38,398 nt of DNA from Chloroflexota bacterium (GCA_016210485.1 JACQUD010000036.1:1-38398); one strand, 5' to 3'. Positions 9,220 to 29,836 are shown, numbered from the stretch's first letter. Notes: generated by a model from the sequence alone, not told the origin. Program-made: numbers and translations.

Positions 9220-9999
9220 CTATTTCAATCCTCTCTCCTGGTCGCGGCAACCCAGTAGATAGGTCCGGGCGGAGTCGGCAAACAGGGGAGCGTCGCCAGT
9301 GCACAGATATTGAAAGCCGGCCTCGCGCCACTGCCTGTAGGCCGCTGGATTGCGGGCGATGGTTCCAGCTATCTTACCCGCCCCTGTTATTATCTGGCCC
9401 AAGTTCATGATGGCCTTGATTACCTCGGGATGAGTGGGCTGGCCGGTGTAGCCCATAGAGGAAGACAGGTCAGTGGGGCCAACGAACACCACATCTACGT
9501 TGTCGATGCGGGCAATCTTATCGGTGTTCTTAACCGCTTCCACCGTCTCTACCTGCACCACCACCAGGGTCTGCTCGTTGGACATCTTGACATACTCGTC
9601 CAGAGGCCGCTCGATTCCAAAGCCTGTCGCTCGCATCCCGGCCAGGCCCCGTTTGCCCAGGGGCGGATACTTCACCGAGTTCACCACGGCACGGGCCTGT
9701 TCCTCGGTGTTGACCATGGGCATCTGTAATCCCAGTGAGCCGGCGTCCAGGTAGCGGAGGATGTTCTGCGGAGAGTTGAGGGCGACACGCGTGACCGTGC
9801 TGATGCCGGTGGACTCAGCGGCACGGACCATGTGCTCCACGGTCTCCACATCGGGTGGGCCATGTTCGGCATCTATGATGACGAAATCGAAGCCCAATAA
9901 CCCGGCAACCTCAACCAGGTCGGGTGATGGCATGGTGCAGAACATACCGATTGTCCCCTCTCCGGTGCGCAACTTCTCCTTCAGTTGGTTTTTTCGCAT
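9220..9999 (-). CDS. HpcH/HpaI family aldolase
   Basis: A 259-residue class II, metal-dependent aldolase of the HpcH/HpaI (phosphoenolpyruvate/pyruvate domain) family. It cleaves 2-keto-4-hydroxy acids to pyruvate plus an aldehyde at the end of aromatic or sugar-acid pathways. Motifs in order are FVIIDAEHGP (catalytic His with the preceding Asp/Glu), GSLGLQMPMVNT, a basic segment KYPPLGKRGLAG, and VVQVETVEAVKN with metal-binding Glu, then VFVGPTDLSSSMG. The ATG is supported by GGAGGG 5 bases upstream. It lies downstream of the solute-binding protein gene on the same strand, separated by 310 bases that contain a hairpin, and may be part of the same regulon. Its natural substrate is not evident. 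Confidence 0.92.
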   Translation of the reverse strand: MRKNQLKEKLRTGEGTIGMFCTMPSPDLVEVAGLLGFDFVIIDAEHGPPDVETVEHMVRAAESTGISTVTRVALNSPQNILRYLDAGSLGLQMPMVNTEEQARAVVNSVKYPPLGKRGLAGMRATGFGIERPLDEYVKMSNEQTLVVVQVETVEAVKNTDKIARIDNVDVVFVGPTDLSSSMGYTGQPTHPEVIKAIMNLGQIITGAGKIAGTIARNPAAYRQWREAGFQYLCTGDAPLFADSARTYLLGCRDQERGLK

Positions 10000-10309
10000 G
10001 TAAGCCCTCCACTAAGGTAATCCCAGTCCGATGAAGGCTATGTAGACCGTCAGAGCTCAGGCAGACTCTTGGGGGGGCCGAGAAACAGGGCAGACCCAGG
10101 CGGTGAGAGCTCCTGAGGTGATAGCAGAGCATTCCCCCTCCCCCAGCGAGGAGCCAGCCAAGGGAACTATACAGGAAATGCCGCCTGGCGTCCACAGGCG
10201 AGCGCCAGGCGGCATATAACATAGCAGCGCCAGATTTGGCCCCTGAGCCCTAATTCCTCTGTTTGCCTTCTTTCAACTATTCCGTTAATAAGTAAGGTGC
10301 CTCAGTGAC
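10000..10309. other. 310-bp intergenic region between aldolase and solute-binding protein genes
   Basis: No gene is seen here. The only clear structure is the inverted repeat at 10178-10215. The aldolase ribosome binding site lies at its left end. I found no good promoter for the aldolase in it, so that gene may depend on read-through from the solute-binding protein transcript. Confidence 0.5.
10178..10215 (-). terminator. Strong hairpin downstream of the solute-binding protein gene
   Basis: A perfect 13-bp stem (arms 10178-10190 and 10203-10215, ATGCCGCCTGGCG and its complement) with a 12-nt loop. On the minus strand only TTTCC follows, so it could be a weak terminator or a 3'-end stabilising structure that keeps expression of the aldolase below that of the binding protein. 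Confidence 0.6.
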
Positions 10310-11782
10310 TCACCGCTCCACGGTGAAGAAATTAGCCGGTGGGGGAGGATACTGGCCCCAGAAGTTCATAGAGGCATTCTCGACCCACTTGTGCCAGGCC
10401 TCCCTGGTCATCCCTTCCTTGGCCAGCTTGAATATAACCTTGCTAGCATAGGAATATTGCTCGAACTTATACCACTGGGTATCTGCTACCCAGAAGGTGG
10501 TCACAGGGTTCTCCGGCCAATACTTTTTCTCCACCAATGAGGGGACGTCCAGGCGCGCCATCGAGGCCAATCCGCCCTTCTCTCCGGCCACAGCCTCTTG
10601 CCCACCCTTGCTGTAGCGCCAGTTGACGAACAGCAGGGCGGCATTAGGATGCGGCGCTTTCCCCATCACGCTTATGGCATCGCTGCCGACGATCGGTGCT
10701 GGCTTCAGGTCGGCAAAGGTTCCGACTTTGATCCAGGTGACCTTGTTGAGCACCGCCGCTTGCTTAATGCCTGAGGCACTAGCGGCGCCGAACGATACGC
10801 TGATGGCACAATCACCCCTATTCAAGCCGGCGGGCTGGCCCGCAAAGGTAAAGAAGAAGCGATTGCCTGTGTTGTAGAGGTCGTAAAAGTAGTCAACGTA
10901 CCAATCGGCATAATTGTACTCCCGGAAGTTGTTCCAGAACTTGAAGTCGACTACGGCGTAGGCAGTGGGCTCCCACTCGCATATCTTATTCTCCTTCCAC
11001 CAGGGGTCCAAGAGGTCCTGGGGCTTCTGGGGATATTTCTCCGAGGATACTATGTTGGTGTTTACAGTGTAATGGCCCGCAGGATAGTCTATAGCATCAG
11101 TCCGAAGGAGAGTATATGGTGTCAGGATGGGGTCGAAGAGCCACGCATTGGGGTCTTTGACATCTATCAGAGCAGGGAGGTTATCGATGCGCTGGAGAAA
11201 GCCCCCCGGCTCCAGGGTGCCCGTTTGCTCGGGCGCTCCAATAGCCACGACATCAGCTATGTACTGGCCGGCCCTGGCCTCGGACTTTATGCGCTCCACC
11301 ATAAGGCTGGGGGGAAGGCCTATGATCTCAAGGTCAATGCCGTAGGTCTCCTTGAAGAATCTAGTCGCCAGGTCGCCCTCCCATGAATCGCGAACGAGGT
11401 CAAAGCAATAGCATGTCAGCTTGCCCTCTTTCTTGGCCGCCTCCACAATTTGGGCCCACTCGGCGTCGGAGATGGTGTCAACAGGGGCAGCGCCAACGTT
11501 GGGCGGCCTGGGGGTGGGAGTAGCGGTGGGGAGCGGAGTCGGGGTTGGAGTGGCTGGGGGTGGGGTCACCCCGGGGGACAGTGGGGTTGGGGTGGGTGGA
11601 ATAGAGGTGGGCGTTGGCGGAACACGGGTCGGGGTTGAAGTCGGCGGAACCGGCGTAGGCGTGGGGGGCCTGGGAGTGGAGGTGGGTGTGGCCTGGCTGG
11701 CACAGGCGGACAACAATGCCAAGATACCTATTAGAGCAAGTAGAACCGCGATGGCAAACCAATGTTTGCTCCAGGACATCAT
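10310..11782 (-). CDS. Iron-type extracellular solute-binding lipoprotein
   Basis: A 490-residue lipoprotein that captures a ligand outside the membrane for an ABC importer. The signal peptide ends in the lipobox LLSAC (Cys about residue 27). A long Pro/Thr linker of TPTP-like repeats (about 32-95) typical of Chloroflexota follows, and then the binding-protein domain ([19 protein letters not shown] onwards). The ADVVAIG segment, the YTVNTN segment and the [17 protein letters not shown] segment fit the Fe(3+)/polyamine/thiamine-type family. This family also binds many organic anions, so iron is not proven. AAGGAGT precedes the ATG by 8 bases. Its promoter region (11854-11882) is a paralogue of the one before the CoA-transferase operon. 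The matching permease is at 19216. Confidence 0.88.
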
Positions 11783-11853
11783 CTTGTTGTACTCCTTCTA
11801 CCTAGTTATTTTGAATCCCCATCGGCCTCTACGGAGCAGGCCACGATGCTGCC

Positions 11854-11882
11854 AATATATCACAGCTCAAAGAAACTGTCAA
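11854..11882 (-). promoter_or_regulatory. Sigma-70 promoter A, for the solute-binding protein gene
   Basis: On the minus strand TTGACA (11877-11882), a 17-base spacer and TATATT (11854-11859) form a near-consensus promoter. The surrounding stretch, roughly 11805-11893, aligns with one indel to 19023-19112. The shared parts are the flank CTCGA(A/G)TTGACAGTTT, the -10 with TATATTGGCA, and a downstream block with ATTCAAAA. The rest of the gap 11783-12083 shows nothing clear, including no convincing promoter for the marR gene. Confidence 0.8.
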
Positions 11883-12083
11883 TTCGAGGCATCGTAGTAG
11901 GGACGCTCCTTCAATAGATACTCCTGCAGCATCGCCACTCTATGATGCTCGTAACTAGCCAGGGCGGAGGGGGTTGGGGCGGGCCGATGGCGGGCGCTAC
12001 CACTCGCTAACTCTATCCCGGTGTCATACAATAAGGCCAAGGACTAAAGGCTACTGCGAGAGGCAGTGCCAGGAGAAGGTAAA

Positions 12084-12572
12084 ATGGACGATAGAACGCA
12101 CACCAATGATGAGATATACTCACTCCTATCGTTCATGCGCACATCGGACATGTTCGACAGATACATGCAGATCAAGTTCGGCGAGATGGGCTACAACACT
12201 ACCAGGGTCGGCCTCCTGACCGCCCTGAGCAACCACGGCGGTGAGATGACGCCGACGGCGCTGAGCAAATTACTATTTCGCACTCAGCACTCGATCACTT
12301 CGGTGGTGCACACCTTGCAACAGAAGGGAATCGTCGAAACGGTGGCCAACCCTGCCGACGGGAGGTCCACGCTAGTTCGCCTCACAGAAAAAGGCAGGAC
12401 AGGAATAGCCCGTTGGATTCCGACAGGGGCTCAGATCGCTCGCTCCGCCTTCGCATGCCTCAGCGAGGACGAGTTAACCAACCTCAACACTATCCTGAGA
12501 CGGATGCGCGCGCATCTGTATGGGCTACTAGAAGATGCCAACCCGCAAATGAGTGGAGAGCAAACTAGCTAG
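12084..12572 (+). CDS. MarR-family transcriptional regulator
   Basis: A 162-residue winged-helix regulator that usually binds DNA as a dimer and releases it on binding a small phenolic or acyl-CoA ligand. The ATG at 12084 is chosen because AGGAGAAGG lies just upstream; a GTG at 12066 is less well placed. The recognition region (MTPTALSKLLFRTQHSIT) is followed by the wing with the family hallmark ADGRSTLVRLTEKG, where D and R in DGR are conserved. It is divergent from the solute-binding protein gene and convergent with the six-gene enzyme operon. It is the obvious candidate to control the two matching promoters at 11854 and 19073, but I did not find a clean palindromic operator in either. Confidence 0.9.
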   Translation: MDDRTHTNDEIYSLLSFMRTSDMFDRYMQIKFGEMGYNTTRVGLLTALSNHGGEMTPTALSKLLFRTQHSITSVVHTLQQKGIVETVANPADGRSTLVRLTEKGRTGIARWIPTGAQIARSAFACLSEDELTNLNTILRRMRAHLYGLLEDANPQMSGEQTS

Positions 12573-12689
12573 ACGTGAATGTAGAACGGCCGCACACGTC
12601 GGTGCCCTCTAGCCCCCCGCGAATTCGATTACTACTTTCACGTTGGCAGGGTGGTGCCGTTAGAGATGATGCTGGAGGAGACTGCTCTG

Positions 12690-13352
12690 TCAAGTCCCCA
12701 GAACAGGCCTAGGGTGAGCTTCGCTAGGGAGTGCGGAAATTTCAATGAGGTCTGAGCGAGTTAAAAAAATACTGGGGTAGGCATGCTGAGAAAACCGTTC
12801 CAAAGCTGCCTGCATATCTTCAACGTGGTAAATACAGTCAACCGGGACTACTGTCCAATAGTTTCTCAGGTAGAAGCCTAGCACTGCGTGGTTAAGGCAC
12901 ACATTGATGCCGCCGCCAGTAATCAGAGCGTAGTACTGTGTTGGGTCGGGAACCAACATCGTCAACTCACGTTCCAGGTCCGTCTTGTAGAATGGGTCAT
13001 GGGAAAACTTCGGCACAACAGTATCCCCCGCTTGTGGCTTCAGTTCTTCCACAATCTCCGCAGCCCAGGTGTCCATCTTGCAGTATGGCTTCATGCCGAA
13101 AATAGCAAACTCGGGTTCCTGAAGAGTGCGCATCGACTGGATATAGATGATGGGGATACCAGCGTTACGAGCCTGCTGTGCCAAGCTGTTGATTGCCGAG
13201 ATAACCCCTGGCATAGTCTGAGCACGTACCTCTGAACGAGTACTTACCTCGTCGTATATCTTACCCCCAGGTTTGCAAAACTCATTTTGCATATCCACAA
13301 TTACCAGAATGGCATTTTGTGGATTTGCGTAGACACGCTGTAGTGTTTTCAT
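12690..13352 (-). CDS. Isochorismatase-family cysteine hydrolase
   Basis: A 220-residue hydrolase of the isochorismatase/nicotinamidase superfamily, which cleaves amides, carbamoyl groups or enol ethers. The catalytic triad is visible: Asp in VIVDMQNEF, Lys in VVPKFSHDPF, and the nucleophile Cys in GGGINVCLNHAVLGF. The start has AGGTAGGAG upstream. It is the last gene of the 19005-12690 operon, 19 bases after the bicupin. In characterised pathways such enzymes deaminate maleamate, N-carbamoyl amino acids, biuret or nicotinamide. Alongside a ring-cleavage-like cupin this could mean degradation of an N-containing aromatic, but that is inference. Confidence 0.92.
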   Translation of the reverse strand: MKTLQRVYANPQNAILVIVDMQNEFCKPGGKIYDEVSTRSEVRAQTMPGVISAINSLAQQARNAGIPIIYIQSMRTLQEPEFAIFGMKPYCKMDTWAAEIVEELKPQAGDTVVPKFSHDPFYKTDLERELTMLVPDPTQYYALITGGGINVCLNHAVLGFYLRNYWTVVPVDCIYHVEDMQAALERFSQHAYPSIFLTRSDLIEISALPSEAHPRPVLGT

Positions 13353-13371
13353 GGCCGCTCCTACCTAGTCA

Positions 13372-14529
13372 CTACTTCTTTTTGTCACCCCTTCCCGCTT
13401 GCAAGGCCTTCCACTCTGGGCACTCCTCCCACACTTCGAAGCCTGTTCCCAGGTCCACCCCCAGAGGCTCGTATAGGTTCGGGATGCCAGCGATGAGCAG
13501 GGCAGGCTTATCCGAATCCGTGTTGAAGTGCTGGAAGATGGTGGGGTTATTGGCATTTGTTGGGAAAAAGAGCATGTCCTCAGCTTCCCAGTCGTGCTTC
13601 TTGCCATTGAGAACAGTGTAGCCCTTCCCTTCCCATATATAGGTGAACCAGCCGCCCTGGTGTTGTATCTTGCCGCTGCGGCTTCCAGGGGGAATCTCTT
13701 GAACATAGACGACGATGGCCCTGTGCACCACGTCTTTGATATTGGGGTGCAGATACCACTTCATCTTTCCCTGCTGGTTGACCTCCCAAGGAATATCGTC
13801 GAAGCGGATGACCGGCCGGCCAGCCTTCACTTGCAGTCTCTGCTCGTCGCGTATTTTAATGAGCTCTTCCAGGCGGTTCGATGGCTCCTTTATGTCGTAT
13901 TGTAATACCGACGGACTTTGGCCAGAGCCTGCTGCAATCTTCCCTGCTCTTTGAACTTGTTCCCCCTCTCTGTACTGGTCGTTCGGCTCCTGGCCCACGT
14001 ACTTGCCCCGGTACTTCTCCCACAACGGGCTACCCTCCATCTGCTCCCAAGACTCGCCTATGGCGTGGGTATAAGCGAGGTGCAGGGCCATCCATCGAGC
14101 GGGTTTATCGCCGATGTTGAAATGCTGATGCTCACATCCTCCTGGCTTGAGGGGGAGCATGATGAGATCGCCCTTCTGCCAGTCCTGACGCACCTCATCG
14201 ATCACCGTGTAACCCTTTCCATCCAACACGAAGAGGGACAGGCCACCCTGATGACGATGGCGCCCGGAGTGATGGGGTATAAGCTGTTGGAAAGGCGAGA
14301 CACTATCGTTCGCCGCCCGATTGGCCCCCCACTCGGGGTTATACCAGCGGATGAGCCCCTGAGGGAAGAGGCGCCAGGGGATCTCTTTGCCCTTGATGAC
14401 AACGTTGTTTTTCACCCTCTCCTGGAGGGCGCGCCGCCTGGCCCCTGCCCGGTCTTCCAGCTCCTCGACAGTGTCCACAATGAACTCAACATCTATGCCT
14501 GGCTCTCTCATCCTCTCCCGTTCTGGCAT
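13372..14529 (-). CDS. Bicupin protein (gentisate-dioxygenase-like)
   Basis: A 385-residue protein with two cupin barrels. The first (about 95-170) has HHSGRHRHQGG as the His-rich metal motif and ends in CEHQHFN. The second (about 260-340) has KIQHQGG and FQHFNTD. Both carry the GKGYTV turn and the same strand order, so the halves look like an internal duplication. Bicupins of this size include gentisate and 1-hydroxy-2-naphthoate dioxygenases, which open aromatic rings with Fe(II). The set of metal His differs enough that another oxygenase, isomerase or lyase activity is possible. It sits between a CoA-transferase gene (84-base gap) and the isochorismatase gene (19-base gap) in the same operon. 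Confidence 0.82.
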   Translation of the reverse strand: MPERERMREPGIDVEFIVDTVEELEDRAGARRRALQERVKNNVVIKGKEIPWRLFPQGLIRWYNPEWGANRAANDSVSPFQQLIPHHSGRHRHQGGLSLFVLDGKGYTVIDEVRQDWQKGDLIMLPLKPGGCEHQHFNIGDKPARWMALHLAYTHAIGESWEQMEGSPLWEKYRGKYVGQEPNDQYREGEQVQRAGKIAAGSGQSPSVLQYDIKEPSNRLEELIKIRDEQRLQVKAGRPVIRFDDIPWEVNQQGKMKWYLHPNIKDVVHRAIVVYVQEIPPGSRSGKIQHQGGWFTYIWEGKGYTVLNGKKHDWEAEDMLFFPTNANNPTIFQHFNTDSDKPALLIAGIPNLYEPLGVDLGTGFEVWEECPEWKALQAGRGDKKK

Positions 14530-14613
14530 GACGACCCCCTTCGATTATTACCAAGTATGAGCGTTATTGAGCACTGCTACTCCGGCTCGCTTATCGACAG
14601 CCCATGGGCGATG

Positions 14614-15915
14614 TCAGGGGATATGGGGAGCTGGCTCGAGGCCGATGTGCCCCTCCCTCTCCAGTCGGGCGTATTCCTCATCGGTGTAGCCCAAGAGCTC
14701 CTTGTAAACATATTCGTTATGCTGTCCCAAATTGGGGGCGGGGTAGCGAACGCGCAGGTGCCCATAGCCGGACATCCGCAGAGGGCTGCCGGGGAAAAGA
14801 TAGCTCCACCCGCCAGGAGCGGTGACTTCCTCGAAGTGTTCCCTGGCCAGGAGTTGGGGGGCCTCAAATACATTTTTGGAGGACAGCACTGGCCCGCACG
14901 GAACCCCTTCTTTTTGCATGAGATGCACAATATCGTAGCAGTCTCGAACTCGGGTCCACTCCAAGATACGCCGATCCATTTCGTCCTGTTTACGATAGCG
15001 GCCCACGATCGTGGCCAGCTCGGGGTCCAGGGCCCAATCGGGATTGCCCAGGGCCCGGCAGAAGCCCTCCCACTCCTCATCGTCGTGGACGGTGATGTTA
15101 ACCCACTCGTCCGCCCCGGCGCAGGGATAGCAGCCGCAAGGGGCCGCCGAGGGGTGGCGGTCGCCCAGGGGTGAGTGCAACCTCTTGTTGAAGATGTAGT
15201 CCATGAAGAACCAGCCGAGCAGGGGCATGAAGTTCTCCACCTGGGCCATCTCCACCAACTGGCCCTGGCCGGTGCGTTTTCTGTGGTGGAGGGCCATGAG
15301 GGTTGCCAGGGCGATGCCGGCGCCGGCGCATCCGTCCGAGATGTCGCTGCCGTGAATGTTTGAGGGGGACACATCGGGGTATCCCCTGAGAAGTCCGTGG
15401 CCGGAGAAAGCCTCCAGGGCCATGGCCAGGGCGGGGCGGTCGCGGTAGGGGCCGGAGAGGCCGTAGCCCGAGGAGCGCACCATGATGAGGGCGGTGTTCA
15501 CCTCCCGAAGCACAGGGTAGTCTATGCCCAGCCTGGTCATCAAGGGAGGGCTGTTGCTTTCTACGAGGACATCGGCGACTTTTATAAGGCGCTTGAATAT
15601 CTCCACACCTGCGGGCTGGCGCAAATTCACCGTCATGCTGAGCTTATTGCGATTGAAGGCGTGGAATCCGCTGCTGCGGTTCCAGGGGTCGGGGCCGGGG
15701 TCTGAGCGGGGATAGCCCCAAAACGGGCTTGCCCGCAGGACCTCCTCTTTGGTGGGACGGGCCCTGATGCCCCGAGCACCGTATAGCCAGTTCTGAGTGG
15801 ACTCAACCTTGATGACCTCCGCCCCCAGGTCGGCCAGGATGGCAGTGCCGAAATTACCGGCAAACATGGGGCAGATGTCCAATACCCTGATCCCCTCCAG
15901 AGGGAGCTTATCCAT
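14614..15915 (-). CDS. Class III CoA-transferase (CaiB/BaiF), catalytic Asp present
   Basis: A 433-residue CoA-transferase that moves CoA between carboxylic acids through an aspartyl-CoA thioester. The ATG at 15915 follows GGAGG by 5 bases; the longer frame to 16095 runs into the neighbouring gene and is rejected. Family segments are LEGIRVLDICPMFAGNFG, LADLGAEVIKVE, NRNKLSMTVNL and SGYGLSGPYRD. The expected catalytic Asp is at about residue 194 (SDGCAGAGIA, matching the GDSNSG region of formyl-CoA transferase). It starts 16 bases after the PPOX-like gene stop. The second CoA-transferase of the operon appears to lack this Asp, so the two may be subunits of one enzyme. Confidence 0.93.
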   Translation of the reverse strand: MDKLPLEGIRVLDICPMFAGNFGTAILADLGAEVIKVESTQNWLYGARGIRARPTKEEVLRASPFWGYPRSDPGPDPWNRSSGFHAFNRNKLSMTVNLRQPAGVEIFKRLIKVADVLVESNSPPLMTRLGIDYPVLREVNTALIMVRSSGYGLSGPYRDRPALAMALEAFSGHGLLRGYPDVSPSNIHGSDISDGCAGAGIALATLMALHHRKRTGQGQLVEMAQVENFMPLLGWFFMDYIFNKRLHSPLGDRHPSAAPCGCYPCAGADEWVNITVHDDEEWEGFCRALGNPDWALDPELATIVGRYRKQDEMDRRILEWTRVRDCYDIVHLMQKEGVPCGPVLSSKNVFEAPQLLAREHFEEVTAPGGWSYLFPGSPLRMSGYGHLRVRYPAPNLGQHNEYVYKELLGYTDEEYARLEREGHIGLEPAPHIP

Positions 15916-15931
15916 TCCAGCCTCCATCTCG

Positions 15932-16462
15932 CTATATGACCCCGAGCCCAAGAGTCGGGGTTTCAGTAGTTGCTGCGACGCCTGACACCGATGCTCGATC
16001 GAAGTGCCGCATATGGGGATGTTTCTTGTCTTCCTCCTCCTTCCGCACTGAGAATGTTTCGTTCCTGACCTCCACAGGCTCGATAAGCCACACACCGGCT
16101 ACCTCGGAATCGGGCCCCTCCTCGCGTCGAGCTTCCAGATAATGTTGCTTGAAGATGGGGCCACTGATCACATATCTGTGTGCCTTTCCTTTGATCTGGT
16201 AGGCGTGCCCGTTGCTGCCCACGACCAACACCGAAACCACTTTGTCATACCACACGCTTCGAAGCATGTTAGCGTTGGCTCGGGACGATTCCATCGCCTC
16301 CCGGTAGACCAGGAGTCCGTCGTCCTGAACGGTCAAGCTTCCCTTCACTACAGCGTGGGGGTTCCCTTGACCATCGGTTGTAGCCAGGATCTTCAAGCTG
16401 GCGCGGTCCTTGAGCAATGAGATGACCTCCGCTGGCAGAGTCGCTGCTGCTATCGATGCCAT
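15932..16462 (-). CDS. PPOX-like (pyridoxamine 5'-phosphate oxidase fold) protein
   Basis: A 176-residue split-barrel protein, probably a flavin- or deazaflavin-binding reductase or oxidase. Typical segments are LKILATTDGQGNPHAV, then VYREAMESSRANANMLRS with the phosphate-binding pattern, and VSVLVVGSNGHAYQIKGKA. ATG at 16462 is chosen because AGGAGG lies 8 bases before it; a GTG at 16471 touches that site. It begins 12 bases after the radical-SAM-like gene stop and ends 16 bases before the CoA-transferase start, so it is tightly embedded in the operon. Anaerobes use such proteins to move electrons from flavin to small molecules; the partner here is unknown. Confidence 0.85.
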   Translation of the reverse strand: MASIAAATLPAEVISLLKDRASLKILATTDGQGNPHAVVKGSLTVQDDGLLVYREAMESSRANANMLRSVWYDKVVSVLVVGSNGHAYQIKGKAHRYVISGPIFKQHYLEARREEGPDSEVAGVWLIEPVEVRNETFSVRKEEEDKKHPHMRHFDRASVSGVAATTETPTLGLGVI

Positions 16463-16474
16463 GTAACTCACCTC

Positions 16475-17752
16475 CTATGCCACAACATCGGGGAGGTCGA
16501 GACGGCTGAGGTCTACGTCTGGACGTGTGGTCTCGCTTCGGTAGTCGGAGAGAGCCACTCCCAGCCCATACTTCCGCCGGATATCGCGAATTCCGACCGA
16601 GAGCTTCACGCAGTACTCGAGGGAAGGCTGTGCTTGCTTCTGCCCGTAGAAGGCGGAGTCCTGCCGCACCCGCAGAATGTTCAGGCGCGCGCTCACCCCA
16701 TGCCGGGCAAGGAACTCGGTCCCTTCCAGAGTAGAAGCTACCGCCTCATCCATGGTTTTGAACCCGTATGGCTGTGCCATTTCTGCCCCCCCCACCCATT
16801 GGGTGCGAACGTTGCCTCTGCCGAACACTTTGACGGCGGCGACGAGGCTGTCTATCCAGTATTGCCTCCCAAAATACTTGGCCTTGAACGGGCATATCCA
16901 CTCGAACAGTTTCTCATCCCAGACCTCGAGGTTTGGCCCAACTATCGCTGCGCCTGCCTCGCGCAGGCGGACCAGTGTTTTTTCCGGAAAGGCGCTGGAA
17001 ACCAGCCGCACCGGGAGGCCTTTGCCTCCAAAACACCTCTTCAGCGTCTTCAGAACCGCTATGTAGGAGTTTGCCTCGTTTTCATAGGGAGTAGCCCCCG
17101 CGGGATCTGAACCTGCCACCAAGTGCATTTCAGTCCATCTTCCCGGCTCCTTCAGGGCCTCGCTCACCGTTTCGTATATATCCTCCAGGTCTGCATCAGT
17201 CTTGGGCCCCTGACTCCCGCGCCTCCGTCCTGTGGCGAAGCAGAATTTACAGGGCTGGCCTTCACTCCAAGCTTGGCAGTAGCTGTGGGGGTTAAGTTTC
17301 AGGCAATCTGAATCAGAGTGTACGATGTGATGCATCGGGGTCCCGCGACTGGTCTTCTTGCCATAATAGTCAGGTATCGTGTCCAGGTAGACCTCCTCCA
17401 CCGGTTCTTCGCCATCCACCAGCATTAGCTTCTCACCGATGATATCCAGAGAATATGGGACCAGCCCGCCCCTCAGCAGGGCGGGCCTCCCGGGGCCTAT
17501 TAGGGTGAAATCTGACCCCAAGAACGAAGAGCCATCCCTGAACGTCCCGCCTCCCAGCTTCCACGGCGCTCTCTCCCCTCCCGGTTCCCCCTCATCCTCA
17601 AAAACGGAGTTCGATTCACGAGCCCTCTCCATCGCCCGGTCGGTCATGGCCACGCCACGTAGCCCGGCATCGATCTTGCGAATGACAAGCCTGGGCACGT
17701 CAGGATACTTCGCCGCGACCTCCTTGAAACTCATGCTGCCCCTCTGACTCAT
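16475..17752 (-). CDS. Radical-SAM-like enzyme with CX8CX2C cluster motif
   Basis: A 425-residue protein that I place in the radical SAM superfamily by layout. The ATG at 17752 has AGGAGGAG just upstream; the GTG at 17779 does not. Its cysteines are Cys150, Cys159, Cys168 and Cys171. The CKFCFATG end looks like a classic radical SAM cluster loop, but the first Cys is eight residues away (CX8CX2C) instead of three. Later segments fit the TIM barrel: MHLVAGSD, VRLVSSAFPEKTLVRL, NLEVWDEKLFEWICP, and VFGRGNVRTQWVGG. From memory these resemble the MSMEG_0568 (nitrilase-cluster) radical SAM family. It lies between two CoA-transferase genes. The reaction is unknown, and other Fe-S chemistry is possible. 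Confidence 0.75.
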   Translation of the reverse strand: MSQRGSMSFKEVAAKYPDVPRLVIRKIDAGLRGVAMTDRAMERARESNSVFEDEGEPGGERAPWKLGGGTFRDGSSFLGSDFTLIGPGRPALLRGGLVPYSLDIIGEKLMLVDGEEPVEEVYLDTIPDYYGKKTSRGTPMHHIVHSDSDCLKLNPHSYCQAWSEGQPCKFCFATGRRRGSQGPKTDADLEDIYETVSEALKEPGRWTEMHLVAGSDPAGATPYENEANSYIAVLKTLKRCFGGKGLPVRLVSSAFPEKTLVRLREAGAAIVGPNLEVWDEKLFEWICPFKAKYFGRQYWIDSLVAAVKVFGRGNVRTQWVGGAEMAQPYGFKTMDEAVASTLEGTEFLARHGVSARLNILRVRQDSAFYGQKQAQPSLEYCVKLSVGIRDIRRKYGLGVALSDYRSETTRPDVDLSRLDLPDVVA

Positions 17753-17793
17753 GATGTCTCCTCCTTCGGTAGAGACCACTGTCTCTCTCCTCG

Positions 17794-19005
17794 CTAGATG
17801 ACCCCGGTTTCACTCATCTTCACCAGGTCCTCTCTGGTGTATCCTAACTCGCCCAGAACCTCGGCGGTGTGCTGGCCCAGCAAGGGGGGCGGCCTCCGCA
17901 GCTGCCAGGGCGACTCAGGCAGAATGAAGGGACGGCCCGGGATGGTCGTCTTCCCCAGGACGGGGTGCTCCACCTCGGTCCAGAATCCCCTGGAGTTGAT
18001 GTGAGGGTCTCCTAGCAGCTCCTCGACGGTATTGCACGGGGCACAGATGACATCGGCGGGCACGGCCTCCTCCCAGCATTGTTTCTTGGTGCGTTGCATC
18101 ATCCAGGAGAGCAGCATGCCGGCTATTTCCTCGTGATTTTCAAGCCGTGCCTCTTCGGTAGCATAGCGGGGGTCGGTGAGGAGATCGGGCCTCCCCAGCA
18201 TTTGGGATACCTGTCTCCAGCGCCCCATTCCGAACCACTCCACATATCCGTCGGCGCAGGGAAGGGCTCCCGTGGGCGGAGAAGAGACGATGCGGCCTTC
18301 CATGGGCTCTCGGGTTTCCTCAGTCTTGGTGAACTGGTACCCCACCTGGTGAGTCAACCGGCCATCGCCGAAGCTGACCAGCAGCTCCATGAGAGACAGA
18401 TCCAGATATTGTCCTCCCATGCCCTGCCACTGCCTGGCGAAGAAGGCGGCCAGGATGCCGATAGAGGCGTAAAGCCCAGCCACCAACTGGGGCATAAACT
18501 GGGCGCTCTTGAGGGGCTCTCTCTCGGCCACGCCGCCGCCGAACTGTTTCCCACCGACGCCCTCCAGCACCAGGTCCGAGACCTTGAAGTCCCGATAGGG
18601 GCCCGTTTGGCCGAAGTTAGAGATGGAGGCCATGACCAGCTCGGGCTTTATTCTCTCCAGGGCGGGATAGTCCAGGCCGAAGGAGGCCATGACGCCGGGA
18701 CGGAAGCTCTCCACCACTATGTCGGCACCCTTGACCAGCTCCTGGAAGATGCGCTGCCCTGTGTCGCTCTTCAGGTTCAGGGCGATCGAGCGCTTGTTGG
18801 TATTGAGGTGGAGGAAGAGACCGCTCCTCTCAGGGTGGGGGATGTCGTCGGGGAAGGGGCCCAGGCGGCGAGCGGAGTCGCCCTCCCCCGGCTTCTCTAT
18901 TTTGATGACGTCGGCCCCGAAGTCGGCCAGGAGCTTGGTAGCGTAAGGGCCGGCGATGTGGTGGGTCAGGTCCAGGACCTTCGTATCGGAAAGGGCTGGC
19001 TCCAA
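17794..19005 (-). CDS. Class III CoA-transferase (CaiB/BaiF), catalytic Asp apparently replaced by Gln
   Basis: A 403-residue CoA-transferase family protein and the first gene of the six-gene enzyme operon. TTG at 19005 is chosen because AAGGAG lies 7 bases before it and homology starts at once (SDTKVLDLTHHIAGP). The longer frame to 19161 crosses the promoter at 19073-19101. Family marks are LADFGADVIKIEKPGEGD, NTNKRSIALNLKS and SNFGQTGPYRDF. In the region where the catalytic Asp should be, the sequence reads MPQLVAGLYASIGILAAF, which places Gln (about residue 173) at that position. The C-terminal half is otherwise complete (VSQMLGRPDLLTDPRYAT, then the closing LGELGYTREDL). A non-catalytic partner subunit, as in two-subunit CoA-transferases of anaerobic toluene degradation, is one explanation. 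Confidence 0.92.
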   Translation of the reverse strand: MEPALSDTKVLDLTHHIAGPYATKLLADFGADVIKIEKPGEGDSARRLGPFPDDIPHPERSGLFLHLNTNKRSIALNLKSDTGQRIFQELVKGADIVVESFRPGVMASFGLDYPALERIKPELVMASISNFGQTGPYRDFKVSDLVLEGVGGKQFGGGVAEREPLKSAQFMPQLVAGLYASIGILAAFFARQWQGMGGQYLDLSLMELLVSFGDGRLTHQVGYQFTKTEETREPMEGRIVSSPPTGALPCADGYVEWFGMGRWRQVSQMLGRPDLLTDPRYATEEARLENHEEIAGMLLSWMMQRTKKQCWEEAVPADVICAPCNTVEELLGDPHINSRGFWTEVEHPVLGKTTIPGRPFILPESPWQLRRPPPLLGQHTAEVLGELGYTREDLVKMSETGVI

Positions 19006-19072
19006 TAGGGGACTCCTTATACGTTGTTTTGAATACCGATCGACCTCCACTGGTGGAAGCCAGGGTATTGCC

Positions 19073-19101
19073 AATATACCATGACTCTGATAAACTGTCA
19101 A
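19073..19101 (-). promoter_or_regulatory. Sigma-70 promoter B, for the CoA-transferase/radical-SAM operon
   Basis: On the minus strand TTGACA (19096-19101), a 17-base spacer and TATATT (19073-19078) form a near-consensus promoter. The same hexamers, spacer length and flanking sequence occur at 11854-11882. The transcript would start near 19066 and have a leader of about 60 bases before the TTG start at 19005. No comparably good promoter is seen on the plus strand for the permease gene in 19006-19215. Confidence 0.82.
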
Positions 19102-19215
19102 CTCGAGGTATTTCGAATGGTCTGCCGCACAGGAGCCCACAGGGGTACTCTGACGAGACAATAGGTCAAAAGGGGAAATGCTACAGGTATTACCTTAAGA
19201 GAGGCTGTTCGAAAG

Positions 19216-20940
19216 ATGCGTTATGTTGCCATCCCCTGCAGTATCTTAAGACATCTTCGTCCCTACGTCCTAGTGCCTTTTCTGGGCCTTCTGGCCCTCT
19301 TTCTGGCCTACCCCATATTCATGGTAGTATATGCCAGCTTCAAGGGAGGGCCTCCTGGGGTCGACACGCCGTTTTCCTTCGAGGGCTATACCCGGGCGTG
19401 GTCGGAGTGGGCCACCTATAAAGCCCTGATAACGACCTTTGCTCTGGCGGTGCCCAGGGTGCTTACCGGAGTTATTTTCGCCATCTTCGCCACCTGGATC
19501 ATCACCCGAACCAACACCCCGCTTCGATGGTTCTTCGAGGAGATGATATGGCTGAAGCTCTTTTTGCCCATTTTACCCATGGTGATGGCGTGGCTGCTCA
19601 TCGCCGGCGGCCGGTCGGGGGTGCTCAACAAATTTCTCATGGATGTCTTAAACCTGTCCAAGCCGCCGCTGGACATCCAGTCCTACTGGGGGGTGATCTT
19701 CTATTCTTTCATGCTCTCGGGAAGTTTCTTCTTCTTGTATATGGCGCCGGCCTTCCGCAATATGGATGCCAGCCTGGAGGAGTCGTCCCGGGTCTCCGGG
19801 GCCAGCAACATAAGAACCCTGTTCCGCATCACCGTCCCCATGATGATGCCCGCCATCCTGGGAGTAACCTTGCTGGTATTCCTCTTTGTGCTGTCCTCCT
19901 ATGAGATAGAGCTATTCTTCCTGGCCCCCAAGGGGGCCTATGTCTTCAGCACATGGATATGGTGGGAAGCCAGCAAGATACCGCCGGACTATCCCTCGGC
20001 CATGGCCATGTCCAGCGTCTTCCTGATATTCGTGGCCATAGTCATCTACCTCCAGTCCAAAATATTGGGCGGGCGCCAGTTCGTCACCGTCACGGGGAGA
20101 GGCTTTGGCGTCAGGCTCCTCGACCTGGGGAAATGGAGGTGGGCTGCCTTCGCCTTCATGGCAAGCTGGACTCTGGTCGGCCTTGTTCTCCCCATGGTCA
20201 TGCTGATATTGGGCACCGTCCAAAACGCCTACGGCGTGCTGGGCAGCGGCTATACCCTGGACTACTGGAGGGAGGCCCTGGGCCGCCCCAGCATCATCAG
20301 GAGCTTCAGGAATACCCTGATGCTGGGATTCATGGCCGCTAGCGCGGGCGTTATCCTATATGGCCTCATGAGCTACATATACATCAGAACAAGGCTCAGG
20401 GGGAGGCAGCTTATAGAGATACTGAGTTGGGTGCCCCGGGCAGCGCCGGGGGTGGTGCTGAGCCTAGGCATAGCGTGGGCTGCCCTGGGCGGCATCCCCG
20501 GCCTCGACTTCCTCTACGGCTCCCTGTTTCTCATGGCCGCAGTCATCCTGCTGGAGGCTACCCCTCAGGGGATGAGGATGATGAACGGTGGCATGGTCCA
20601 GCTTTCCGCGGAGCTGGAGGAGGCCTCCCGAGTCTCAGGGGGCTCCTGGAGCCACACCATGAGAAGGGTAGTGGTGCCCCTGCTCATGCCTACCTTGCTC
20701 CATGCCTGGTTGCTTATCTTCCGGGGTGCCACCAGTGCCCTAGTAGTCCTCCTGTTCATATACAGGCCCTCCTCCAAGGTGCTCGCCATCGATATCTTCG
20801 AGCGCATGCTGACCAATCAGCCACAGCAGGCGGCTATACTGGGGGTGCTGCTCACCGCCATCAGCATGGTGGTGGCCATCGTGGCTCGCGTCCTGGCCTT
20901 CCGACAGAGGCGGTCCCTGGAGATCGGCGGCGGAGTTTAA
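19216..20940 (+). CDS. ABC transporter permease, iron/organic-anion type, two fused permease domains
   Basis: A 574-residue membrane protein with about twelve helices. Two copies of the binding-protein-dependent permease domain are fused in one chain, as in FbpB/SfuB-type importers. Each half carries the EAA loop that contacts the ATPase: MDASLEESSRVSGASNIRTL in the first half, and SAELEEASRVSGGS with a nearby RRVVVPLLMP in the second. GAGAGG lies 11 bases before the ATG. The gene is divergent from the CoA-transferase operon. The matching binding protein is at 10310-11782. No ATP-binding gene of this type occurs in the locus, so the ATPase must be encoded elsewhere or shared. The gene converges on DUF2851 with a 30-base gap. 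Confidence 0.92.
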   Translation: MRYVAIPCSILRHLRPYVLVPFLGLLALFLAYPIFMVVYASFKGGPPGVDTPFSFEGYTRAWSEWATYKALITTFALAVPRVLTGVIFAIFATWIITRTNTPLRWFFEEMIWLKLFLPILPMVMAWLLIAGGRSGVLNKFLMDVLNLSKPPLDIQSYWGVIFYSFMLSGSFFFLYMAPAFRNMDASLEESSRVSGASNIRTLFRITVPMMMPAILGVTLLVFLFVLSSYEIELFFLAPKGAYVFSTWIWWEASKIPPDYPSAMAMSSVFLIFVAIVIYLQSKILGGRQFVTVTGRGFGVRLLDLGKWRWAAFAFMASWTLVGLVLPMVMLILGTVQNAYGVLGSGYTLDYWREALGRPSIIRSFRNTLMLGFMAASAGVILYGLMSYIYIRTRLRGRQLIEILSWVPRAAPGVVLSLGIAWAALGGIPGLDFLYGSLFLMAAVILLEATPQGMRMMNGGMVQLSAELEEASRVSGGSWSHTMRRVVVPLLMPTLLHAWLLIFRGATSALVVLLFIYRPSSKVLAIDIFERMLTNQPQQAAILGVLLTAISMVVAIVARVLAFRQRRSLEIGGGV

Positions 20941-20970: not shown

Positions 20971-22272
20971 CTAAGGATTGCCCTCTTTCAGAGGACAGGC
21001 CCGGCAGCCTCCCTGGTAGCAGACGTTCCTCTCCAGGTGGAGCAACCCCTGCTGGCGACATGCCGAGGTGAGCGCCCCGGCCAGAGCCGGGCCCAGGCAG
21101 GCCCTCACCTGGCCCAGGAGGCCGTTATCGGGAAGCTTGGGATGCCTTTTGTAAACCTTAAGGCACCTCTCTGCTAACTGATGCCTCCCTTCCCTCCGAG
21201 CCCAGGCCAGGAAGAAGGGAAGCACAATATTCACCGCCATCTCCCGGGCCCGACCCAGCCCCACCAGGGCACCAAGGTCTCCGGGCGCCTTCGTCCCCGG
21301 ACACAGATGGCAGCGCCAGTAGTCGTCGGCCTCCACCTTGAGGCCCCGGGACAGCTCCCCGGCCACCCTGGCTTCGGAGCCTTTTTCCAGGAGGGACTTC
21401 AGGCCTTCGAGGAGCCCCTGCCTTCGAAACCCCACCGCCATCCGGGCCGCCCCGGCCAGCCGCCGCGCCGGATGGTTCCCCGGCCGCCCCCACCGAAGCC
21501 AGGGGACAGGTATGGCTACCTCGCCGCCACAACGAGCCCGGGCCAGCTCCAGACAGCGCTCCCAGGGATGGTCCGGGGGCAACTCCCTCTGGGAGGGAAG
21601 CAGGCCGGCGGCCCCCAGGAGAAAGGCCTCGGCCTGGGCTACGGCCTCCTCATCTTCCATATTGCCAATATACCCCTCCAGCTGGCGAAGAGGCACCCTG
21701 TCCGCCAAGTTCCGAAAGGCATCTTTGTTACCGGCGTAGCCCAGAGCGCCCAGAAGACCCCGGTAGAGCACCTGAGGGCCCTCTCCATCTCCCATCTCCT
21801 CATAAAAGCAGGCAGCCTTCTCCTCCAGCCTTTTTCCCCCAGCCCGGTCCAGGAGGAGGCCGAGGTCAGGGCGGGGAGAGGCAGCGGCCACCTCCGGAGA
21901 TGGGAGGTCGGCCTCCCCTATCCAGGCATCCAGCGCCAGGGTGGGAACCTCCTGTCCATTCTCCAGACGAATAGGCCTATGAGTATCGTCCTGGGCCACT
22001 AGGTGCAGGATAACATCGTTATAGGCCGGATCTCGGTGGTGGCCGTGAGCCCGCCACAGGCTGGACAGGCGGTGCGCCTCCACATCCCCTCGAAGGAGCT
22101 GGCCGCTCTTACCCGCCAGAAGGGCACCCTGGAAGTCGGGGCCCCCCTGTCCGGGGCGCCTCCCGGGGTAAGCCACCTCCCAGCTCTCGCCCTCCAATTC
22201 CAAGGGGCGGCGTCCGGAGGCTCGGCGCCATAGCTCCGCCAGCTCCGCCTCCGTCATCTCACAAGGCTTCAT
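20971..22272 (-). CDS. DUF2851 family protein
   Basis: A 433-residue protein that I recognise as DUF2851, whose function is unknown. The N-terminal block is conserved-looking: GGPDFQGALL (about residues 42-51), LRGDVEAH, HGHHRDPAYNDVILHLV. The middle is helical. The C-terminus is cysteine-rich: CHLCPG, then ACRQQG, then NVCYQGGCRACPL, ending in a CX4CX2C group. The PD...(D)VE pattern near the N-terminus plus a C-terminal Cys cluster is reminiscent of Fe-S nucleases of the PD-(D/E)XK type (Cas4/AddB style), but the Lys is replaced by His (VEAH), so this is only a hypothesis. Its ATG overlaps the stop of the HTH-macrodomain gene by ATGA, so the two are co-translated. Confidence 0.82.
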   Translation of the reverse strand: MKPCEMTEAELAELWRRASGRRPLELEGESWEVAYPGRRPGQGGPDFQGALLAGKSGQLLRGDVEAHRLSSLWRAHGHHRDPAYNDVILHLVAQDDTHRPIRLENGQEVPTLALDAWIGEADLPSPEVAAASPRPDLGLLLDRAGGKRLEEKAACFYEEMGDGEGPQVLYRGLLGALGYAGNKDAFRNLADRVPLRQLEGYIGNMEDEEAVAQAEAFLLGAAGLLPSQRELPPDHPWERCLELARARCGGEVAIPVPWLRWGRPGNHPARRLAGAARMAVGFRRQGLLEGLKSLLEKGSEARVAGELSRGLKVEADDYWRCHLCPGTKAPGDLGALVGLGRAREMAVNIVLPFFLAWARREGRHQLAERCLKVYKRHPKLPDNGLLGQVRACLGPALAGALTSACRQQGLLHLERNVCYQGGCRACPLKEGNP

Positions 22273-23030
22273 CTATCCCCCATAGAGGCATCGCCCGTAT
22301 TCCCCAGGGCCTCTTGAAAGGCCAGGTAGGCTCCCTCCCCCCGCAGAGCGAAGACCACCTCTTCGACGGAGGCCGGCCCCGCCAGGAAGCCCTTGACCTC
22401 CTCCAGCATGATCCGGGCGCATTCCTTCACGGGGAAGCCGCCCACCCCGGTGCCCAGGGCGGGGAGGGCCAGACTCCTCACACCCAACTCCGCCGCCCGC
22501 CCCAGGGCGCTGGCCGTGGCCTTCCTTATTTTGTCGGCATCGGTGGCCAGGTCCTGGCCCATGACGGCGGCATGGATGACGTATCTCGCCTGGAGGCGAC
22601 CTGCGCCGGTGATGATGGCCTCCCCTATGGGTATAGGGCCTTCCCTCATCGCCTCGGCCTCGATCTCCTCACCTCCCTTTCTTTTGATAGCCCCAGCCAC
22701 CCCACCCCCCATCCACAGGTGATTGTTGGCAGCGTTAACTATAGCCTCCACTTCCAGGTCAACGATGTCCCCTAGATAGAGCCGAATGATCGCCTCTCTA
22801 TCATCGGGGACACTCTCAGTTATCGTTGCCTCATACTTGAAGCCGGCATGCTCCGCCACCAGGCTCAAGAGGGTAGCCGAGGCTCCTCGGGGGCGATACA
22901 GCCCCGTCTCCCACTCGCTGATAGTCTGCTGCCGGGTGCCCAGCTCCCGGGCCAGTTTCGCCTGGGTGAGTCCCAGGTGCCGCCTCAGGCCTCGCACACT
23001 GGAGGCATCCCAGCTAGGCCGCCTTTTCAT
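22269..23030 (-). CDS. Fusion of XRE-type HTH and macrodomain
   Basis: A 253-residue protein with an N-terminal Cro/C1-type helix-turn-helix (about 12-62: VRGLRRHLGLTQAKLAREL, then QQTISEWETG) joined to a macrodomain (about 80-245). The macrodomain keeps the ADP-ribose site: IVNAANNHLWMGGGVAGAI and PALGTGVGGFPV. It should bind or remove ADP-ribose or a related ligand and bind DNA through the HTH. ATG at 23030 is chosen: the frame continues to a TTG at 23066, but that TTG is part of the -35 box. The promoter puts the transcript start at about the ATG, so the mRNA is probably leaderless. The next gene, DUF2851, overlaps by 4 bases. An inverted repeat inside the promoter suggests self-regulation. 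Confidence 0.93.
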   Translation of the reverse strand: MKRRPSWDASSVRGLRRHLGLTQAKLARELGTRQQTISEWETGLYRPRGASATLLSLVAEHAGFKYEATITESVPDDREAIIRLYLGDIVDLEVEAIVNAANNHLWMGGGVAGAIKRKGGEEIEAEAMREGPIPIGEAIITGAGRLQARYVIHAAVMGQDLATDADKIRKATASALGRAAELGVRSLALPALGTGVGGFPVKECARIMLEEVKGFLAGPASVEEVVFALRGEGAYLAFQEALGNTGDASMGDR

Positions 23031-23037
23031 GCCGCAG

Positions 23038-23066
23038 ATTATACACGGAATAGTGTAAGCAGTCAA
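23038..23066 (-). promoter_or_regulatory. Sigma-70 promoter with operator-like inverted repeat, leaderless HTH-macro gene
   Basis: On the minus strand TTGACT (23061-23066), a 17-base spacer and TATAAT (23038-23043) form a near-consensus promoter. The distance from the -10 to the ATG at 23030 is 7 bases. The spacer contains TACAC-N6-GTGTA (23042-23057), a perfect inverted repeat that would be hidden if RNA polymerase were bound. It is well placed for the encoded HTH protein to repress its own operon. Confidence 0.75.
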
Positions 23067-25835: not shown

Positions 25836-26672
25836 CTATAAACTGTTACTAGTAGCTTCAGGCTCGGGCACTGCGGAAATAAGGGCCTTTGTGTAGGAAT
25901 GATGGGGATGGCTCAGAAGCTCCTCCGTTTCTGCCATCTCCACAATTTTGCCCATATACATCACCGCTATGCGCCGACACATGTAGCGTGCCACCGCTAG
26001 GTCGTGGGTAATGTATAGATAGCTGATGTTGAACCGCTGCTGCAAATCTAACATCAACTTCATAATCCCGATGCGCACCGAGACGTCCAGCATGGAAGTC
26101 GGCTCATCAGCCACGACGAAGGTCGGGTTGAGAATGAGCGCTCGGGCAATGGCCACTCGCTGCCGCTGGCCGCCGCTCAGCTCATGGGGATAACGGAACA
26201 GATATTGCTTTGGAGGGATGATGCCCACCAGGGCTAGCATTTCCCTCACTCGCTCCTCCCTTTCCTTCAGGTTGCCTATACCCTGGACCACCATAGGCTC
26301 CACTATCGTGTCGTAGATGGTGCGCCTGGGATTCATAGACTCGTAAGGGTCCTGAAATATCATCTGGACCTGGCGCCTGAACTGCCGCCTCAGGCTGGAA
26401 GAGAGGTGTGCCACATCCTGCATTTCGCCACCCAGAGGGAAGTAAATGTGGCCAGCATCCGGTTCAAGGAGCTTTACCAGAAGCTTCCCTGTGGTGGTCT
26501 TGCCACATCCTGACTCGCCCACTAGGCCTAAAGTCTCGCCAGGGCCAATATCTAAGGAGATATCGTCCACGGCATGCACATATGAGGTGGGCTTTAGGAA
26601 CACGTTCCGGCTCACGGGGAACCACTTCCTCAGGCTTTCCACCTTCACCAAGGTGTCGAAAGAGGGGGTCAC
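25836..26672 (-). CDS. Dipeptide/oligopeptide ABC transporter ATP-binding protein (OppF/DppF-like)
   Basis: A 278-residue ATPase, one of the pair that powers the peptide-type importer. Motifs are Walker A GESGCGKTTTG, the signature HELSGGQRQRVAIARAL, Walker B FVVADEPTSMLDV, and the switch His in YITHDL. The protein stops before the C-terminal Cys-rich oligopeptide extension that its partner keeps. The ATG overlaps the partner gene stop by ATGA. It is the last gene of the five-gene operon 31795-25836. Confidence 0.95.
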   Translation of the reverse strand: MTPSFDTLVKVESLRKWFPVSRNVFLKPTSYVHAVDDISLDIGPGETLGLVGESGCGKTTTGKLLVKLLEPDAGHIYFPLGGEMQDVAHLSSSLRRQFRRQVQMIFQDPYESMNPRRTIYDTIVEPMVVQGIGNLKEREERVREMLALVGIIPPKQYLFRYPHELSGGQRQRVAIARALILNPTFVVADEPTSMLDVSVRIGIMKLMLDLQQRFNISYLYITHDLAVARYMCRRIAVMYMGKIVEMAETEELLSHPHHSYTKALISAVPEPEATSNSL

Positions 26673-27652
26673 GACCGCCCTCTCTCAGATTCCTGCACGG
26701 GATGCCAGCAGGCGGCAAACTGATCAGGCCCATGCTTCTCAAAGGCTGGCTCCTCGGTTTTGCAAATCTCAGTGGCATAATGGCAGCGGGGATGAAAGCG
26801 GCAAGCTGAAGGGGGGGAAACCAAGTCCGGGGGGTCTCCTTCCAAGGGCTCCAGGGCCAGCTTGGGACCGTGGAGCCGCGGGAAACAGGATAACAAAGCC
26901 TGGGTGTAGCGGTGGCGGAAATGTTCAAAGAGCACCCCGGTGGGAGCTATCTCCACTATCTTGCCAGCATACATCACAGCTATCCGGGCGCTCACTTGGG
27001 CGATGACGCCGATGTCATGGGAAATGTACATGATGCTGGTGTGGAGGTCTCGCTGCACGCGCTTCAGCTCTTCCAGCACCAGATGCTGGACTATCACATC
27101 CAGCGCGGTGGTGGGCTCATCGGCCACTACCACCGATGGCTGGCAAGATAGCGCCAGAGCGATGACTGCCCGTTGCCTCATGCCACCGCTTAGCTCGTGG
27201 GGATATCGGCGCAGGAGCGCCTCTTCCAACCCAACCAGGCCAAAGAGGTGAGCCGCCCGTTCCCTGGCCTCCTGGAGAGATCCCCTCTGGTGGACAAGGA
27301 TAGCCTCTTCGATCTGGCTCCCCACCCGCGCTACGGGGTTAAGCGAGCTCATGGCTGCCTGGAACACCATGGAGATGTGCTGCCACCGCCAGCGCCGCAT
27401 CTCCTCATCCCCTAGCTGCAACAGGTCCGTTCCGTTGAGGAGAATGCGACCACTGAGGATCCGAGCGTTGTCCGGCAGGACCCGTAGGAGACAAAGGGCG
27501 ATGGATGTTTTGCCGCAGCCCGATTCGCCCACCACCCCCAGGGCCTCCCCCTGGGCCAGGGTGAAGGAGACATTGTCCACCGCTCTGACTTCGCCCTGGC
27601 GCGTCAGATAGTGCATGGTGAGCTCCTCCACTTGGAGAACGGGCGCTGGCAC
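26669..27652 (-). CDS. Dipeptide/oligopeptide ABC transporter ATP-binding protein (OppD/DppD-like)
   Basis: A 327-residue ATPase with Walker A GESGCGKTSIA, the signature HELSGGMRQRAVIALAL, Walker B VVVADEPTTALDV, and the switch His in YISHDIGV. The C-terminal oligopeptide-transporter extension with Cys is present (CRFHPRCHYATEICKTEEP), a place where some DppD proteins hold an Fe-S cluster. GTG at 27652 is chosen because it overlaps the OppC stop (TAGTG) and GAGG lies 8 bases upstream. The frame runs on to 27823, but only inside the permease gene. Confidence 0.95.
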   Translation of the reverse strand: MPAPVLQVEELTMHYLTRQGEVRAVDNVSFTLAQGEALGVVGESGCGKTSIALCLLRVLPDNARILSGRILLNGTDLLQLGDEEMRRWRWQHISMVFQAAMSSLNPVARVGSQIEEAILVHQRGSLQEARERAAHLFGLVGLEEALLRRYPHELSGGMRQRAVIALALSCQPSVVVADEPTTALDVIVQHLVLEELKRVQRDLHTSIMYISHDIGVIAQVSARIAVMYAGKIVEIAPTGVLFEHFRHRYTQALLSCFPRLHGPKLALEPLEGDPPDLVSPPSACRFHPRCHYATEICKTEEPAFEKHGPDQFAACWHPVQESERGRS

Positions 27653-29750: not shown

Positions 29751-29786
29751 GTTAATGTATATATTCTTTCATTATTGTGGAAGAGA

Positions 29787-29822: not shown

Positions 29823-29836
29823 GATCAGCTATCCTA

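Follow-up and report, generated by a model that had tools for sequence, protein, structure and literature searches.

A co-regulated transport and CoA-transferase locus of a Chloroflexota bacterium, with a radical SAM-PPOX pair that may cleave C-S bonds

Which compound is taken up and broken down by the locus at positions 9220-20940 of a 38,398-nucleotide DNA from an uncultured Chloroflexota bacterium (GCA_016210485.1 JACQUD010000036.1:1-38398, the whole of which is called here the window), and what is done there by a radical SAM (S-adenosylmethionine) enzyme encoded next to a small predicted flavoprotein, PPOX? The original prediction had read the genes as uptake, coenzyme A (CoA) activation and an unusual radical or redox step in the catabolism of an organic acid, an outline that the comparisons reported here support. 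It had also thought of aromatic or N-containing acids, to which nothing points specifically; the strongest comparative signal, which it did not foresee, is that of sulfonate transport and sulfur assimilation around the radical SAM-PPOX pair. We tentatively favour, at a probability short of even, a CoA-dependent catabolic locus in which the pair would perform a radical cleavage, most likely of a C-S bond. The likeliest substrate would for that reason be a sulfonated carboxylic acid releasing sulfite.

The radical SAM-PPOX pair and its genomic neighbours

The radical SAM enzyme is encoded at 16475-17779 on the minus strand. It scored 167.7 bits against the NCBIfam family NF045502 (variant_rSAM), for a cut-off of 125, which makes it a true member of that family. 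NF045502 is a family name to which no function is assigned, and the clade of PPOX-paired enzymes is not set apart within it. The cluster motif is CX8CX2C (C168, C177 and C180) rather than CX3CX2C; it was matched by 61 of 62 homologues, and a further cysteine, C296, is also invariant in the clade. The AlphaFold2 model (predicted local distance difference test, pLDDT, 82.8) has the predicted partial TIM barrel of the radical SAM superfamily. Its best matches in the PDB are lipoyl synthase (LipA), PylB, HydE and biotin synthase (BioB), and sequence profiles matched, weakly, biotin synthases alone. A distant homologue, the radical SAM protein of the Nit1C cluster (MSMEG_0568 family), likewise has a long first cysteine spacing, but differs by its CX9CX2C motif, a score of 39 bits, a nitrilase context and the lack of all the partner genes seen in the window.

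Genes for CX8CX2C enzymes are multiplied in single Dehalococcoidia genomes, with about 17 copies in one (G044, at loci L036-L043, L051 and L052, mostly beside AfuA-like lipoproteins) and about 12 in another (G020, at L045-L048 and L058-L063). Members of another branch were found near nitrogenase-like DK genes (L101:2364-7155 and L072:2528-20438), each time in a genome having the radical SAM-PPOX pair as well.

PPOX, encoded at 15932-16471 on the minus strand, scored 22.7 bits against Pfam PNPOx_N, under the cut-off of 28.1. Its model is predicted to adopt the small flavin mononucleotide (FMN) split-barrel fold, matching HupZ and the FMN-binding protein of Desulfovibrio, and flavin binding is predicted. 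Besides the window, adjacent genes for the two proteins were found in 12 further pairs at 11 loci, spanning five phyla: one pair, a close relative, in G058, two in G007, one in Elusimicrobia, two each in Omnitrophota and Geobacteraceae, one in a pseudomonadote, and the others in three further genomes. The pair is rare, since matches with E up to 1e-90 were obtained in 3 of 395, 2 of 285 and 1 of 160 genomes of the three phyla sampled. In a tree, the window enzyme falls into one clade with the other PPOX-paired enzymes (support 99/98), together with two Elusimicrobia copies that have no adjacent PPOX gene. This patchy spread over phyla suggests horizontal transfer. A contig search with a single protein gave no match and a four-sequence profile gave ten loci; the plasmid search returned distant relatives at most. 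Genes for B12-binding radical SAM proteins lie close to the pair at L070:11420-12697 and L102:10377-11738, with domains confirmed, and at L104:14892-16262, on a sequence reading only.

Genes for Ssu/Tau transporters or for CysK, MetK or MetY were present within 9 kb at 8 of the 11 PPOX-paired loci outside the window, and at none of 45 other variant radical SAM genes (Fisher p ~1e-7). The controls exclude five radical SAM genes located on the contig of a PPOX pair, and the 45 that were kept are not independent, many of them coming from G044 and G020; a hand count by genomes gave 7 of 9 with PPOX pairs and 0 of 19 among the controls. Because the reference proteins had been drawn from the PPOX-paired loci themselves, the test was redone with CysK, MetK and MetY alone, which are conserved enough to be detected in the controls, and within the same distance yielded 6 of 11 against 0 of 45 (p ~1e-5). 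The neighbours were confirmed by hidden Markov models, with SsuA-family scores that were mostly under the subfamily cut-off.

The fullest neighbourhood, L071 of Omnitrophota, holds two radical SAM-PPOX pairs together with a NIR/SIR-family reductase, siroheme synthase, HemB, HemL, a CymR-like Rrf2 regulator, a nitroreductase, a major facilitator superfamily transporter, SsuA-, SsuB- and SsuC-like genes, CysK and MetK. From its gene content, this locus reads as sulfonate uptake, C-S cleavage, conversion of sulfite to sulfide, and production of cysteine and SAM, the pair being placed at the step for which no other enzyme is evident. The reductase itself (L071:106-2502) has TusA as its C-terminal domain, a fusion that looks uncommon.

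Gene organisation and twin promoters

All ten genes at 9220-20940 are open frames and match the families that had been named for them; the enzymes listed add up to seven, one fewer than the eight announced by the original prediction. Six genes follow each other on the minus strand with gaps of 3 to 85 bp, in the order CoA1, radical SAM, PPOX, CoA2, bicupin and isochorismatase-fold hydrolase, CoA1 and CoA2 being the two CoA-transferases. The radical SAM-PPOX pair thus sits inside the operon, between both CoA-transferase genes, with gaps of 3 to 15 bp. The gene of an AfuA-like substrate-binding lipoprotein (10310-11782, minus strand; Pfam SBP_bac_8 and SBP_bac_1) is divergent from that of a MarR-family regulator (12066-12572, plus strand; MarR_2, 43 bits), and CoA1 is divergent from the gene of a double ABC permease (19216-20940, plus strand; BPD_transp_1 twice). 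CoA1, the first operon gene, probably starts with a TTG near 19005, behind AAGGAG, rather than at 19161, its product beginning with MEPALSDTKVLD; the gap to the permease gene would therefore be about 210 bp.

That these genes belong together had been read from gene spacing, and is now backed by a twin promoter-leader, placed upstream of the lipoprotein gene (copy A, 11791-11892) and upstream of CoA1 and the operon (copy B, 19012-19111). Both copies, on the minus strand, consist of TTGACA, 17 bases and TATATT with an extended -10 (at 11882-11854 in A and 19101-19073 in B), followed by similar leaders that extend as far as the Shine-Dalgarno region. Aligned, the copies agree in about 77 of 103 columns (75% over ~100 bp), with a score of 98, where 1000 dinucleotide shuffles reached 32 at most; no other promoter-like site of the locus ranks as high as these two. 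A 33-base core pattern, allowing up to 3 mismatches, had two matches in the full assembly, A and B themselves, and none in the reversed control. As the host assembly (1.24 Mb) is 69% complete, further copies may be present in its missing parts. Since the promoter-leader is common to both, the lipoprotein is tied to the operon by sequence, and the co-regulation of its gene with the six-gene operon, as one locally regulated locus, is supported. The local MarR protein would bind, and probably controls, both twin promoters; a perfect MarR palindrome common to the two was looked for and not found.

The gene of an HpcH/HpaI class II aldolase (9220-9999, minus strand; Pfam, 124 bits) had also been included in the locus. 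No test that we made ties it to the other genes, and its membership is uncertain. It lies 310 bp past the lipoprotein gene, behind a strong hairpin, a G+C-rich inverted repeat at 10160-10215 (GCCGCCTGGCG ... CGCCAGGCGGC); its own upstream region carries no twin promoter, and it was not seen beside the module in other genomes.

Further along the window, a Dpp/Opp-like ABC transporter is encoded at 25836-31795, 5 kb past the locus. A Dpp-like transporter also flanks both radical SAM-PPOX pairs of G007, with ATPases 46-48% identical to those of the window. At 33910-38391 lies a 1493-amino-acid open frame opening with MTLFDMTTFDM repeats, and at 22269-23066 a frame which, as read from its sequence only, resembles a fusion of a helix-turn-helix and a macro domain.

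CoA-transferases and transport genes

CoA1 (17794 to ~19005, minus strand; CoA_transf_3, 331 bits) and CoA2 (14614-15918, minus strand) belong to class III. In the COA-TRANSFERASES comparison, CoA1 has the catalytic Asp, within SDLVLEG and aligned with the Asp of solved relatives, and CoA2 has Ala at that position, its homologues having Ala or Gly. CoA1 is nearer to 9fn0_A than to 9fn0_B, the chains of benzylsuccinate CoA-transferase, and CoA2 scores 141 bits with 9fn0_B but 83 bits with 9fn0_A. The best reading is that the two would form an unequal, heteromeric class III CoA-transferase of BbsEF type. BbsEF (PDB 9fn0) likewise has two unequal class III subunits, one of them without the catalytic Asp; the difference is that in the window CoA1 and CoA2 are split by the radical SAM-PPOX pair in the operon. 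Genes of the benzylsuccinate pathway, bbsABCDGH and bssABC, are absent from the annotated locus.

Conserved synteny of the radical SAM, PPOX and both CoA-transferase genes had been proposed as a sign of a single pathway. This held in part: the pair is kept in five phyla, and a radical SAM gene is adjacent to CoA1 and CoA2 genes in two other Dehalococcoidia genomes (G007 contig 161 and G020 contig 144), where the radical SAM enzymes are distant, from other tree branches than that of the window; all four genes together were found in no sampled genome. At L073, a class I CoA-transferase pair lies directly upstream of a radical SAM-PPOX pair. Taken with the class III pairs, this means that CoA activation recurs beside the radical SAM family with two unrelated transferase classes. 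Genes for 2-hydroxyglutaryl-CoA-dehydratase-like proteins, found near related radical SAM genes, would fit radical chemistry on CoA esters, which is only suggestive.

The substrate-binding lipoprotein matched PDB entries weakly, to an iron-binding protein, and its substrate is not inferable from these relatives. The best NCBIfam match of the double permease is PhnU2, with 108.7 bits for a cut-off of 593, a score that rules out an ortholog of this 2-aminoethylphosphonate transporter. In raw counts, 15 of 18 radical SAM genes and 7 of 10 bicupin genes in G044, and 6 of 9 bicupin genes in G058, had an AfuA-like lipoprotein encoded within 2.5 kb; none did in G020 or G023. Glycyl radical enzyme genes stand among bicupin and binding-protein genes at L052:9416-15548 in G044, the one at 9416-11854 being pyruvate formate-lyase-like with a Gly_radical domain.

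Candidate chemistry and its alternatives

If the pair does cleave a C-S bond, the AfuA-type lipoprotein and the double permease would import an organic acid, of which CoA1 and CoA2 would form the CoA thioester. The CX8CX2C enzyme would next cleave a bond by a radical mechanism, with the FMN protein PPOX as redox partner; on a sulfo-acyl-CoA, a radical adjacent to the C-S bond could expel sulfite, to be compared with isethionate sulfite-lyase, which is of another enzyme class. Hydrolysis or oxygenation of the remaining carbon skeleton would then fall to the bicupin and the isochorismatase-fold hydrolase, and perhaps to the aldolase. The bolder proposal, that the pair is an undescribed, O2-independent two-protein desulfonating enzyme sparsely distributed in at least five phyla, whose window version is CoA-coupled and acts on a sulfonated carboxylic acid, seems to us conceivable and rather doubtful.

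Several observations weigh against a sulfonated substrate. No sulfur genes were recognised within 9 kb of the window pair, of its close relative in G058 or of the Elusimicrobia locus, so that the substrate in the window is unproven; and since SsuA-like proteins carry other substrates too, neighbourhood alone is no proof of C-S cleavage. Nor does the window transporter belong to the Ssu/Tau type, and the locus genes include no ABC ATPase. The bicupin resembles, in sequence, O2-dependent dioxygenases, which is odd next to an oxygen-sensitive enzyme. Finally, conservation of the whole locus was not found in 393 genomes of the class and 400 of the phylum (an evenly drawn sample, with score thresholds): the parts in the window recur, but their combination was seen nowhere else.

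A sulfur-free acid, aromatic or N-containing, has to be taken seriously as an alternative, and we hold it to be possible rather than probable. It would be activated with CoA and undergo a radical/flavin step on a bond other than C-S; the bicupin would open its ring, and hydrolysis of an amide and an aldol split would also contribute to its breakdown. The radical SAM-PPOX pair would in that case do one general chemistry, for instance a reductive elimination or a rearrangement, on host-specific substrates. The accessory enzymes speak for such a route. The bicupin (13372-14529, minus strand; Cupin_2 twice) has gentisate and 5-aminosalicylate dioxygenases as its nearest relatives; gentisate 1,2-dioxygenase is the nearest PDB match (42 bits). 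Its three-His metal site (His91, His93 and His134) is kept in 23 of 23 homologues, which are multiplied in G044, G058 and G023; it falls far under the NCBIfam equivalog for gentisate 1,2-dioxygenase, at 37 against 442 bits. The hydrolase (12690-13352, minus strand; Pfam, 98.5 bits), a cysteine hydrolase of amide or ureide type, has an N-carbamoylsarcosine amidase-like protein and RutB as its nearest solved relatives, and its Asp, Lys and Cys positions were identified. The aldolase is of HpaI type by fold family, and below every NCBIfam equivalog cut-off (195 bits against 369 for the HpaI 4-hydroxy-2-oxoheptanedioate aldolase). Related radical SAM genes in G044 stand among genes for UbiD, aldehyde:ferredoxin oxidoreductase and FAD (flavin adenine dinucleotide) reductase, and the lack of recognised sulfur genes in the window counts on the same side. 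What a sulfur-free acid leaves unexplained is the presence of sulfur genes at 8 of 11 PPOX-paired loci, compared to none of 45 unpaired ones.

It is unlikely that two or three modules are merely juxtaposed, that is, a radical SAM-PPOX pair for sulfur scavenging, a catabolic set made of the binding lipoprotein with the bicupin and the CoA-transferases, and an unrelated aldolase. The parts do recur separately in other genomes, never all together in those sampled, and the aldolase has no share in the twin promoter, but the pair is embedded between the CoA-transferase genes and the operon promoter is common to the lipoprotein gene. A role of the radical SAM enzyme and PPOX in cofactor synthesis or repair, or in protein modification, instead of action on an imported substrate, is highly improbable. 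In its favour, LipA, BioB, HydE and PylB, to which the fold is closest, are all biosynthetic, and at L072 and L101 variant radical SAM genes have NifDK-like neighbours. Against it, the 17 and 12 copies per genome, which in G044 are accompanied by genes for binding proteins and catabolism, represent a multiplication that is expected of substrate-specific enzymes.

The described anaerobic sulfonate routes are IslAB, Xsc and IsrBHDK (PMC11423573). The isethionate reductase IsrBHDK with SsuCAB of Rhodobacter capsulatus (PMC11423573) would be alike in assimilating sulfonates anaerobically, with release of sulfite, and in a locus that encodes a radical SAM protein together with sulfur genes and a transporter of Ssu type; it differs by its requirement for the nitrogenase-like HDK proteins and by having no PPOX partner. 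No nitrogenase-like nflHDK genes were found among the locus genes or the scanned flanking genes of the window. The window enzyme was also considered as an IsrB, and this was dropped, as the closest relative reported for IsrB is BciD (PMC11423573). The isethionate sulfite-lyase IslAB (PMC6386719) would share the O2-free radical C-S cleavage with release of sulfite, but consists of a glycyl radical enzyme and its activase, neither of which is present in the window. The open-access literature that was searched yielded no paper linking a CX8CX2C radical SAM enzyme and PPOX to sulfur metabolism, and no described pathway with exactly this combination of genes, in agreement with the original prediction.

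How strict anaerobes release sulfur from sulfonates without oxygen is partly known. The radical SAM-PPOX pair, standing beside Ssu transporters and CysK or MetY, and once beside a sulfite/nitrite reductase and siroheme genes, is a testable candidate for another route. If the window version does use CoA thioesters, it would link radical C-S cleavage with the catabolism of organic acids in a Chloroflexota lineage of which little has been cultured.

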